From NCBI GenBank assembly GCA_016871895.1, contig VHBO01000021.1, positions 1-32,130 of the forward strand: a stretch of DNA of 32,130 nucleotides, in the 5' to 3' direction. The notes under the pieces are model-generated. The model had not been told where the DNA came from. It did no database searches and saw nothing but the letters and a program-made list of their open reading frames with translations. Every line of letters begins with the position of its first letter. Positions within the stretch are counted from its first letter, which is position 1. Below, one piece after another: positions 2,268 through 5,756 of this stretch. The position numbers and the translations under genes were made by a program. The DNA comes from Gemmatimonadota bacterium (GTDB lineage Bacteria; Gemmatimonadota; Gemmatimonadetes; Gemmatimonadales; Gemmatimonadaceae).

Positions 2268-3383
2268 ATGAAGATCGGCATCCCGAAGGAGATCAAGACC
2301 AACGAGAACCGTGTCTCGCTGGTCCCCGCTGGTGCGGAGGCCCTCGTGGCCGCCGGCCACTCCGTCTACGTCGAGCAGGGCGCTGGTGAGGGCTCCGGCT
2401 TCAGCGACGACCAGTACACGGCTGTCGGCGCCAAGCTCCTCCCGACGGCGGATGCCGTCTGGAAGGAGGCGGAGATGATCATCAAGGTGAAGGAGCCGAT
2501 CGCCGTCGAGTGGCCGCGGATGCGGAAGGGGCAGACGATCTTCACCTACTTCCACTTCGCCGCGGATGAGAAGCTGACCAAGGCGCACCTCGACTCCGGG
2601 GCGACCTGCATCGCCTATGAGACGGTGGAGCTCCCGACGCGCGAGCTGCCGCTGCTGACCCCGATGTCCGAGGTGGCCGGGCGGATGGCGGTGCAGGAGG
2701 GGGCGAAGTACCTCGAGAAGCTCTACGGCGGGCGTGGCGTGCTCCTCGGTGGCGTGCCGGGCGTGCCGCCGGCCAAGGTGGTGATCCTCGGCGGTGGCGT
2801 CGTGGGCGTGAATGCGGCGAAGATGGCGGCGGGGATGGGCGCCAAGGTCGTCATTCTCGACACCTCGCTCCCCCGCCTGCGCTACCTGAGCGACGTGATG
2901 CCGTCGAACGTGCAGCTGATCTTCTCGAACCGGCAGAACGTCCTCGAGCAGATCGCGACGGCCGACCTCGTGGTCGGCGGCGTGCTGCTCCCCGGCGCGA
3001 AGGCGCCGAAGCTCATCCGTCGTGAGGACCTCAAAACGATGCGGCCGGGCGCGGTGATCGTCGACGTCGCGATCGACCAGGGCGGCTGCGTGGAGACCAT
3101 CAAGGCCACCACGCACGAGAATCCGGTCTACACGGTGGACGGGATCATCCACTACGGCGTGGCGAACATGCCGGGCGGCGTGCCGCGCACGTCGACCCTC
3201 GCGCTCACCAACGCGACCCTCCCGTACGCGCTCAAGCTCGCGAACAAGGGGTGGAAGCAGGCGCTCCACGAGGACGGCGCGCTCCTCAAGGGGCTCAACG
3301 TCGTCGACGGCAAGGTGACGTATCAGGGTGTCGCCGAGGCGTTCGGGATGGAGTACCACGCGCCGGAGCAGTTCCTCAAGTAA
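2268..3383 (+). CDS. ald: Alanine dehydrogenase
   Basis: NAD-dependent reversible oxidative deamination of L-alanine to pyruvate and ammonia. 371 residues, the usual length. Substrate and catalytic residues sit at the family positions: R15 (KTNENRVSL), K75 (IIKVKEP), H96 (TYFHFAAD) and the Asp in VDVAIDQGG. The Rossmann motif [16 protein letters not shown] is intact. The start ATG gives the canonical N-terminus [10 protein letters not shown]. It lies 63 bp after the M16 gene and 2 bp before the next start. The only -10-like sequence is TATCCC ending 6 nt before ATG, without a matching -35, so its promoter is uncertain. Homologous to the NAD(P) transhydrogenase alpha subunit, but the length and residues fit Ald. 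Confidence 0.96.
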
Positions 3384-3385
3384 CG

Positions 3386-4525
3386 ATGGGGATCCGGGCC
3401 CTCGGGATCCGGTGGCTGGCGGTCGTGGCGCTTGGCGCCGCGACCGCCAGTGTGCTTTCGGGGCAGGCGTCGGGCCGTCTCGAGGGCGTCGTGCAGGATG
3501 CCGATGGCCGTCCGCTCGCGGGCGCGCGCGTCACGCTCCTCCGCGGGACGGAGGCGGGCGCGGAGGTCGAGGCGGATTCGCTCGGCCGCTTCACCTTCCC
3601 GGTGACGGCGCCCAGCGGGGGGCGTGTCGTGGCGCGGCGGCTCGGCTTCACGCCTGACACCGTCCCAGTTTTCGATGCCGGGGGCGAAGCGTTGCTGCTC
3701 GTGCTCGGCCGAGTGTCGCCCCGGCTCCCGCCGGTGGTCGTCACCGGGCGACGCGACCTGCGGGGGCCGCTCGCGGGCTTCTACGCGAGGCGGGCGCAGG
3801 GGCAGGGGCGCTTCTTCACCGCGGAGGAGATCGATAGGGAAGGGAGTCGTCGTCTCTCCGACCTCCTGCGCGGCCTGCCGGGGCTGCAGCTGCAGGCCCG
3901 CCGCGGCGGGATGACCACGATGCGACTCCGTGGGGCGAATGTCGCCCCGCTCGTCTGGTTGGATGGGGCGCCCTTGGGGGGCGTCGAGCTCGACATCGAT
4001 GCGTTCGATGCCCGGACCTTCGCCGGGGTGGAGGTCTATGCCGGCCCCGCGACGGTGCCGGCCCAGTTCGGCGGGGCGGGGCGGTCGTCCACCAGCGGTG
4101 GGACGATCGTGCTCTGGAGCCGAGAGGGGCAGGCCGTCACCCCGCGGCGTCGTCGCGGGGACCCGACCCCGTTCGCGCGGGCCGCGGCGCTCGTCGAGGC
4201 GGGTGAAGCGCTGCTGGCGGCGCAGGTGGAGACGCCGGCCCGCCTGGCGGATGCGCGCGGTCTCGCGCCGCTCTACCCCGACTCGCTCCACGCCGCCGGC
4301 ATCCCGGGGGCGGCGGAGGTGGAGTTCGTGCTCGATGCGGCGGGCCGGGTGCGGCTCGACACCTTCGGTGTCGTCTGGGCCACCCATCCAGCCTTCGGGG
4401 AGTCGGTCCGGCGGGCGGTGGCCGCGCGGGCGTGGCGGCCGGCGGTCCGTGATGGAGCGGCGGTCCCGCAGCTCGTGACGCTGACGGTGCTCTTCGACCC
4501 GCAGGAGTCGCCGGGCCGGCCCTGA
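3386..4525 (+). CDS. Secreted protein with carboxypeptidase-regulatory, TonB-receptor plug and TonB-C-like domains, no beta-barrel
   Basis: The ATG 2 bp after the ald stop gives 379 residues beginning with a signal peptide (about 1-27; hydrophobic WLAVVALGAATASVL, likely cleavage after SGQA). Residues about 30-110 resemble the carboxypeptidase D regulatory-like beta-sandwich that precedes many SusC-type receptors (GRLEGVVQDADGRPLAGARV). Residues about 117-245 resemble a TonB-dependent receptor plug (PVVVTGRR, LSDLLRGLPGLQLQ, MRLRGANVAPLVWLDGAPL, VEVYAGPATVPAQFGG). Residues about 305-372 resemble the TonB C-terminal fold (AEVEFVLDAAGRVRLDTFGV, HPAFGESVRRAVAARAWRPA). There is no room for the usual 22-strand barrel. 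A frame open upstream to 3251 lies inside ald and would bury the signal peptide. Domain calls are by eye; function is unknown. Confidence 0.75.
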   Translation: MGIRALGIRWLAVVALGAATASVLSGQASGRLEGVVQDADGRPLAGARVTLLRGTEAGAEVEADSLGRFTFPVTAPSGGRVVARRLGFTPDTVPVFDAGGEALLLVLGRVSPRLPPVVVTGRRDLRGPLAGFYARRAQGQGRFFTAEEIDREGSRRLSDLLRGLPGLQLQARRGGMTTMRLRGANVAPLVWLDGAPLGGVELDIDAFDARTFAGVEVYAGPATVPAQFGGAGRSSTSGGTIVLWSREGQAVTPRRRRGDPTPFARAAALVEAGEALLAAQVETPARLADARGLAPLYPDSLHAAGIPGAAEVEFVLDAAGRVRLDTFGVVWATHPAFGESVRRAVAARAWRPAVRDGAAVPQLVTLTVLFDPQESPGRP

Positions 4526-4718: not shown

Positions 4719-5756
4719 ATGCGTTGGCCGTCCTTCAATCTCGGTGGTCTGCTCACGGCGAACGCCATCGCCGTCGACCTCGGGACCGCAAACACGCTCG
4801 TGTATGTGAAGGGCGAGGGCATCGTGCTGAACGAGCCGAGTGTCGTCGCGATCGATCGCGAGACGAAGCGCATCAAGGGAGTGGGGCTCGAGGCGAAGCG
4901 GATGCTGGGGCGCACGCCCGAAGGTGTGATCGCCGTGCGGCCGATGAAGGACGGTGTGATCGCCGACTTCGAGGTCACCGAGAAGATGCTGCGCTTCTTC
5001 CTCGAGCTGATCATCAAGAACCATGTCTTCCGCGTGAAGCCGCGCGTGATCGTCTGCGTGCCGTCCGGTATCACCGAGGTGGAGCGGCGCGCGGTGCGCG
5101 ACTCAGCGCTCGGCGCCGGCGCGAAGGAGGTCTTCATGGTCGCGGAGCCGATGGCGGCGGCGATCGGTGTGGGACTCCCGGTCGACACGCCGACGGGAAA
5201 CATGGTGATCGACATCGGCGGCGGGACGACGGAGATCGCGGTCATTGCGCTCTCGGGGATCGTCTCGGACACCTCGATCCGCACCGGCGGCGACGAGCTT
5301 GACACGAGCATCGTGCAGTTCATGCGGAAGAGCTACAACCTCCTCATCGGGGAGCCGACGGCGGAGCAGATCAAGATCCAGATCGGGTCGGCGGCGCCGC
5401 TCGGCGAAGAGCGCGAGATGGAGGTGAAGGGCCGCGACCTCGTCTCCGGGATCCCGAAGACGGTGCGCGTGCATTCGGCGGAGATCCGCGAGGCGGTGCA
5501 GGAGCCGGTGCAGCAGATCGTGAACGCGGTGCGCCGCGCGCTCGAGATCACGCCGCCGGAGCTCGCCTCCGACATCGTCGACCGGGGCATCGTGATGACC
5601 GGTGGCGGCGCGTTGCTGCGGGGGCTCGATGTGCTCCTCACGCAGGAGACGGGGCTCCCCATCCACGTCGACGAGGATCCGCTGACCTGCGTGGTGCGTG
5701 GGACGGGCCGCATCCTCGACGACGAGGAGCGGTACTGGTCGGTGCTCACGAGCTGA
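4719..5756 (+). CDS. mreB: Rod shape-determining actin homologue MreB
   Basis: Actin-fold ATPase that polymerises on the inner membrane and guides lateral cell-wall synthesis. 345 residues, the family norm. The phosphate-1 loop ([13 protein letters not shown], about 18-30), phosphate-2 loop ([13 protein letters not shown], about 163-175) and adenosine motif ([13 protein letters not shown], about 290-302) are all present. The N-terminus [12 protein letters not shown] precedes the fold and may help membrane attachment. It is the first gene of the mreB-mreC-mreD-mrdA-rodA operon; mreC begins 13 bp after its stop. The cluster predicts a rod-shaped cell, at least in some growth phases. Confidence 0.98.

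Follow-up and report, generated by a model that had tools for sequence, protein, structure and literature searches.

In the usual description of TonB-dependent transport, TonB contacts the TonB box of a receptor, and a plug and a TonB C-terminal domain usually belong to opposite partners in this contact. A sequence-only reading had noted this division, which holds, and had pointed to a gene product that contains both parts. What might such a protein do? It is encoded in the window, by which we mean the whole stretch of 32,130 nucleotides of a Gemmatimonadaceae contig that was analyzed, where positions 3386-4525 of the plus strand form an uninterrupted open reading frame that translates into 379 residues. 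We named this protein PTX; its parts and neighbors are the following.

2268 to 3383, plus strand: upstream neighbor, which we take to be ald (alanine dehydrogenase-like); same order in relatives
3386 to 4525, plus strand: whole PTX gene, 379 aa, intact
3386 to 3466, plus strand: signal peptide, residues about 1-27, with a putative cleavage site (hydrophobic N-terminus, low pLDDT)
3467 to 3721, plus strand: NTE (CarboxypepD_reg, transthyretin-like), residues about 28-112 (Pfam, 9hfj match)
3728 to 3748, plus strand: TonB-box-like segment PPVVVTG, residues 115-121, in the same place as the BT1763 TonB box
3773 to 4135, plus strand: plug, residues about 130-250 (Pfam Plug, SusC 6z9a match)
3941 to 3943, plus strand: codon of V186, a column that holds Cys in most family members and is paired with column 238 (alignment)
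4097 to 4099, plus strand: codon of G238, the partner Cys column (alignment)
4136 to 4228, plus strand: linker, residues about 251-281, with a helix at 262-271 (alignment, AlphaFold2)
4229 to 4507, plus strand: TonB C-terminal domain, residues about 282-374 (Pfam TonB_C, 6i97_D match)
4719 to 5756, plus strand: downstream neighbor, which we take to be mreB; marker of the site by its order across relatives

Three Pfam domains were matched in PTX: CarboxypepD_reg at residues 32-95 (E 6.9e-11, 42.8 bits, cut-off 32.3), Plug (PF07715) at residues 144-224 (E 2.1e-11, 44.7 bits, cut-off 23.9), and TonB_C (PF03544) at residues 295-371 (E 7e-6, 26.8 bits, cut-off 24.6). The NCBIfam model of the TonB domain, TIGR01352, stayed below its cut-off (22.2 versus 27.1 bits). 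A chance match to TonB_C is ruled out by the family alignment, where Plug and TonB_C are matched in all 31 members, PTX included (CarboxypepD_reg in 29 of the 31), and by the fold match given below. The outer-membrane barrel (PF00593) was absent from the eight Pfam families listed for PTX up to an E-value of 10, and the plug is followed by only about 130 residues, that is, the linker and TonB_C. Hydropathy averaged over 19 residues peaks at the N-terminus (mean 1.77 from residue 6); no later membrane anchor was seen, the highest such mean beyond residue 35 being 1.37. The translation contains no cysteine, which rules out a lipoprotein, and PTX is probably cleaved at its signal peptide and periplasmic.

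The AlphaFold2 model of PTX, built from an alignment of 31 rows (PTX and 30 homologs), has a mean pLDDT of 83.5 and a pTM of 0.69, with pLDDT values below 50 at residues 1-7 and 9-27. Structure comparison matched the NTE to the NTE of SusCdex (9hfj; Z 11.7, rmsd 3.2, 80 residues aligned) and the plug to SusC (6z9a; Z 9.7, rmsd 3.5, 104 residues), FyuA (4epa; Z 9.6, rmsd 3.1, 109 residues), and a model of Fiu, the three plug matches spanning Z 9.6-9.9, rmsd 3.1-3.5, and 104-109 aligned residues. The C-terminal domain matched that of TonB in its complex with FoxA (6i97_D; Z 9.6, rmsd 1.9, 89 residues). A profile search against PDB sequences likewise led from residues 32-256 to SusC homologs (5t3r, E 7.3e-9) and from residues 294-372 to TonB. 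Because the fold matches and the PDB profile matches agree, the front half of PTX is of the SusC kind, NTE included, and goes beyond a generic plug. The anatomy proposed earlier, with a signal peptide, a CarboxypepD_reg domain, a plug, and a TonB_C domain in 379 residues free of barrel and anchor, is thus borne out by Pfam, hydropathy, and AlphaFold2, and the plug and TonB-C folds, whose absence from a predicted structure would have counted against it, are present in the model and have matches among known structures. That account did not contain the SusC-like N-terminal half, the link to SusC and SusD, the paired cysteines, or the group of short related proteins described below.

Could PTX be a damaged gene? 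A survey of the same taxonomic family retrieved 39 further full-length homologs in 31 of its 58 other genomes; full length meant a match that starts at query residue 34 or before, ends at residue 365 or after, and has an E-value of 2.9e-34 or better (40 matches in 32 of 59 genomes with the window's genome counted). No stop interrupts the match in 38 of the 39, and one has a TAG. Compared with the nearest relative (L064), whose MreB is identical to that of the window, the dN/dS of PTX is 0.29 overall, 0.156 for TonB box plus plug, 0.185 for TonB_C, 0.41 for the NTE, and 1.1 for the signal peptide (18 codons); among neighboring genes it is 0.13 for mreC and 0.06 for rodA. Judged by these ratios, PTX evolves faster than its neighbors yet is constrained in both contact domains. 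A frame-shifted remnant, which had been named as the outcome that would undo the earlier interpretation, is ruled out by the 39 full-length homologs, the domain matches in 31 of 31 members, and the dN/dS of 0.29. The same three results also stand against the view that PTX is what is left of a full TonB-dependent receptor after loss of the barrel. Its NTE, TonB box, and plug are all receptor-like, but the NTE-plug part groups with barrel-less proteins, apart from the N-termini of 25 SusC proteins, and we regard this view as very improbable.

The barrel-less proteins in question are short secreted NTE-plug proteins of Gemmatimonadota (here PT; L123-L142 are among their loci), 195-264 aa long as called. 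In a tree of the NTE-plug part, the 25 SusC rows come together in one starred clade, with 33 PTX rows and 19 of the 20 PT rows on the opposite side; the remaining PT row (L138) joins next to SusC, unsupported. The branching of PT is not clean, because PT requires three changes in this tree. A recent copying of the PTX front half from a neighboring SusC is not supported, the SusC N-termini being a starred clade apart from PTX and PT. Across 200 genomes of the phylum (matches down to an E-value of about 3e-43, at most nine candidates per genome scored), all full-length matches among those listed, and with them the three-domain form, were in a single family, f1. Alignments from other families of the class end at about residue 265 among the matches listed, and none of the six genomes outside the class was matched among them. 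Judged by the matches listed, PT proteins are class-wide, and the fusion to a TonB domain appears confined to one family. A pattern scan that reached other phyla and is biased to close relatives returned 30 loci. Of these, 28 have titles with the names Gemmatimonadota, Gemmatimonadetes, Gemmatimonadaceae, or Gemmatimonas, whereas L046 is titled "bacterium" and L054 "Candidatus Kuenenia". The last, a contig labeled Candidatus Kuenenia stuttgartiensis, holds a Gemmatimonadota-like PTX gene, and its bin label is probably wrong.

The plug of PTX starts with a motif seen throughout the family alignment, AGFYxRRxxGxGxFxT, and most family members carry a pair of cysteines in it. At columns 186 and 238, both residues are Cys in 52 of 67 members and neither is in 15 (the window protein, with V186 and G238, is one of these); no member has a single one. 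In a second alignment, whose rows were cut at 68% of length, both cysteines were found in 19 of 20 PT proteins, with one single, and in none of 25 SusC proteins; of the 33 PTX rows in it, 25 have both, seven have neither, and one has an apparent single, a class that is empty in the fuller alignment. The pair may form a disulfide that stabilizes a plug without a barrel. Loss of the cysteines is not tied to loss of SusCD, because both PTX copies in L056 and both in L060 also lack the pair yet adjoin SusC or SusD.

Between the NTE and the plug, PTX has the segment PPVVVTG (residues 115-121). In BT1763, according to the accessible part of the source, the TonB box DEVVVTG sits between NTE and plug (PMC7782687), and the PTX segment occupies the matching place. 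Residues 117 and 119 are hydrophobic in 64 of 67 family members, and a V-x-V pattern is kept in members other than the window protein. The exact letters VVVTG occur in one of the 67, the window protein, so binding of TonB by this box is not assured. A second AlphaFold2 model, of residues 26-258 and thus truncated before the TonB domain, bears on what the segment might do. There, strand 117-120 is gone, residues 115-122 fall below a pLDDT of 50, and the pTM is 0.53 versus 0.69 for the full-length protein, a comparison that is only rough between models of unequal length. All the remaining listed helices and strands are kept, their ends shifted by two residues at most. In the full-length model, the mean pLDDT over ten residues is 82 at 111-120 and 68 at 121-130. 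Since strand 117-120 is present only together with the TonB domain, in these models it depends on residues 259-379. The TonB C-terminal domain pairs with the TonB box by strand augmentation, as the part of the source available to us states (PMC6699858). Given this mode of binding and the loss of the strand on truncation, the models suggest that the TonB domain of PTX clasps the protein's own TonB-box strand. The partner of the strand is deduced here from its loss on truncation and not from model coordinates, and a second structure comparison repeated the matches of NTE and plug and yielded no information about that partner. The earlier suggestion of a self-associating scaffold hence finds indirect support from the models in an intramolecular form.

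With which system, then, does PTX work? We examined flanks of up to 8 kb, some of them short, around 40 loci (the 39 full-length ones and a partial one, L107), using three queries for SusC. At 11 of the 39 full-length loci, SusC is encoded directly downstream in the same orientation; its match begins 50-456 nt past the PTX stop, and SusD was found after SusC in nine of these 11. SusC is elsewhere in the flank at three more of the 39 (L098, L100, and L104) and at the partial locus; with three queries, and flanks that are partly short, none was detected in the fetched flanks of 25. There is no SusC directly downstream in 28 of the 39, nor in the window. At least 351 SusC matches were counted in 24 genomes of about 106 Mb together, from which about 0.05 cases within 700 nt would be expected by chance, and SusC was found in 0 of 20 control regions of 13 kb each from the same genomes. 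Part of the PTX family is linked to SusC. Nine of the 11 linked SusC proteins (L085, L088, L089, L092, L093, L094, L096, L097, and L101) group in a single starred SusC clade; of their PTX partners, eight group in a single starred PTX clade, L101 being outside the PTX rows. The linked SusC proteins of L078 and L090 fall in different SusC clades, and their PTX genes are sisters. Among PT genes, 8 of 20 have SusC within the fetched flank (up to 6 kb).

The linkage is common and not universal, because other PTX genes occupy other recurring places. At L040-L042, PTX stands beside what is presumably an enoyl-ACP reductase-like gene. At L043-L047 and L049-L052, the gene after it encodes a secreted protein (KEIGRTSIGTP...KESWYY) with a called length of about 90-180 aa, and several of these loci have upstream genes that we take to be TolB/tricorn-like and phosphodiesterase-like. 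In the window, the ald stop and the PTX start are separated by two bases (3384-3385); because this spacing is shared with L009, L062, and L063, PTX may be co-transcribed with ald in the window's lineage.

The site between ald and mreB has a varied history of its own. Among ten genomes of the genus, it is empty in four (G023, G110, G122, and G204), although in G122 PTX-type genes accompanied by SusC and SusD are found at another place (L201). Four have PTX alone (G000, which is the window's genome, G049, G193, and G159), and one, G156, has PTX-SusC-SusD-PTX. In G209, all that the site holds is the decayed C-terminal end of a SusD (L200 1229-1932, G209:C5), matched over 43 residues, 65% of them identical (E 5.6e-13). 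The same frame contains a stop, and we read this SusD end as the scar of a lost SusCD cassette. In named loci, the site holds PTX-SusC-SusD-PTX (L056/L194), SusC-SusD-PTX (L055), and, at a contig edge, SusD-PTX-PTX (L060). The 193-nt gap between PTX and mreB in the window gave no SusC or SusD match up to an E-value of 1 in a sensitive search, and only two matches to the PTX query (E 0.13 and 0.26). The window's genome, of 2.3 Mb, has at least four SusC matches. In the PTX tree, which was made by a quick method with SH-aLRT support only and is unrooted, the window copy falls in a starred clade, and six of the 11 rows in this clade are linked to SusCD. Most simply read, the site once had a SusCD cassette together with PTX, of which the window's lineage would have kept PTX alone; because the tree is unrooted, gain and loss at the site are not strictly separable. 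The role of the window copy may have changed, because it lacks the cysteine pair and its site lacks SusCD.

The SusC linkage, the SusC-like front, and the TonB end make the contact between TonB and SusC the likely place of action. Our preferred reading, to which we assign a probability of roughly 0.4, is that PTX is a periplasmic accessory of SusCD systems, self-clasped at rest, that acts as a gate or relay in the energizing of SusC. PTX would copy the part of SusC that faces the periplasm (NTE, TonB box, and plug) and have a TonB C-terminal domain in place of the barrel. At rest, its TonB domain would clasp its own TonB-box strand. When a SusC partner exposes its TonB box, the TonB domain of PTX could swap onto that box, and the TonB that is anchored in the membrane could then capture the released TonB box of PTX. 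PTX would thereby work as a gate or relay and decide when, or which, SusC is energized; both the swap and this regulatory role are extrapolated from the models. Against this stand the 28 loci that have no SusC directly downstream, the placement of the L078 and L090 SusC proteins in different clades, and the loosely kept letters of the TonB box. TonB_C is also frequent in soluble proteins and lipoproteins of these genomes other than PTX, and its presence does not have to signify coupling to energy. Proteins that are small, secreted or lipoprotein-like, and have little beyond a TonB C-terminal domain are encoded at L164, L167, L168, L181, L174, and L121, and because of them we conclude that TonB_C is used outside TonB in these genomes.

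Such soluble TonB_C proteins, and the short NTE-plug proteins that lack TonB_C, speak for the view that PTX is a periplasmic binding protein or sensor whose soluble plug binds the substrate being imported and whose TonB_C is just a structural or dimerization module. Usher et al. reportedly found in 2001 that the FepA plug binds siderophore without its barrel, which also fits. However, a ligand binder of this kind would leave unexplained why the TonB-box-like strand of the models depends on the TonB part and, beyond upkeep of the fold, why TonB_C is constrained (dN/dS 0.185); we consider it unlikely, although ahead of the other alternatives. Next, and unlikely as well, comes a physical insertion of PTX between TonB and SusC. 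PTX would be a self-clasped switch that unites both sides of the TonB interaction in a single soluble chain; with its TonB domain on the SusC box and TonB on its own box, the pulling force would run through its plug, presumably held by a disulfide in most members. If true, TonB-dependent transport would include a relay step in the periplasm that is so far not known.

The earlier note had also raised the ideas of a decoy and of an adaptor, both of which are conjecture so far. As a decoy, PTX would soak up TonB by way of its TonB box and plug, or cover the TonB boxes of SusC, so that transport is damped and no force is passed; it has both interaction halves and neither barrel nor anchor, and part of the family adjoins SusC. 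On the other hand, a self-clasp as modeled would hide both surfaces, and the letters VVVTG are not kept across the family. We place the decoy a step below the insertion, among the unlikely readings. More doubtful than either is a biogenesis helper that would keep hold of a new SusC by its NTE, TonB box, or plug up to its assembly, with the TonB domain as a handle. PTX does directly precede SusC in the 11 linked loci, but it also stands at sites without SusCD (the window, G049, G193, and G159), and nothing points to chaperone features.

Four groups come closest to PTX. SusC/RagA proteins (TIGR04056; BT1763, BT3090, and RagA) are laid out like PTX from signal peptide and NTE to plug, with a TonB box where PTX has its TonB-box-like segment; unlike them, PTX has no barrel, has a C-terminal TonB domain, and in most members of its family has plug cysteines, and it reaches only 22.8 bits against the TIGR04056 cut-off of 368.25. 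With TonB (PF03544/TIGR01352), PTX shares the fold and motifs of the C-terminal domain, and its residues 270-373 are 37% identical to the TonB of this genome, which is encoded in what we take to be a tonB-exbB-exbD-like cluster (L003). Here, the anchor is replaced by a signal peptide-like N-terminus and the proline-rich arm by NTE and plug, and PTX is not beside exbB or exbD, whereas the exbB/exbD-like genes that were found adjoin tonB in that cluster. PT proteins share the NTE and the barrel-less plug with PTX, whose front half groups with them and not in the SusC clade. The cysteine pair, present in 19 of 20 PT proteins, is found in 52 of 67 PTX family members and is absent from the window copy. 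PT stops after the plug, whereas PTX adds a TonB domain. A further parallel is MxcH, the myxochelin receptor (NF038079), a receptor-length model with a TonB_C-like stretch: residues 296-376 of PTX match its positions 11-89 of 792 (21.5 bits, cut-off 925), so that this TonB-like part is at the start of MxcH and at the C-terminus of PTX. The match suggests that one chain can contain both a receptor and a TonB-like domain.

M56 sensor proteins with plug or TonB_C domains occur in Bacteroidota, and our literature search found no paper on them. The same search, of titles and abstract openings with few subscription papers covered, found no barrel-less plug with a TonB domain and no mention of this Gemmatimonadota group, nor anything on barrel-less plugs or on plug/TonB-dependent systems in Gemmatimonadota. 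As far as its accessible part goes, a TBDT survey demands plug and barrel together (PMC6434023); because both are required, barrel-less proteins like PTX are excluded from such surveys. A conserved soluble protein that has both contact surfaces, and whose gene adjoins SusCD in some members, suggests a third player that could gate or share TonB. For work on plugs, PTX is a natural example free of a barrel, and it is relevant to what the SusC NTE does, which is described as unknown in the part of the source available to us (PMC7782687).

In the window's genome, the end of a 333-aa open reading frame (G000:C5, about 60340-61341; L004 814-1815, L118) is a copy of the TonB C-terminus: it has three differences from the last 100 residues of the genome's TonB (L003/L119) in the ends compared, and the N-terminal part of the frame is different. 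We take this for a recent duplication of the end of TonB into a different gene.
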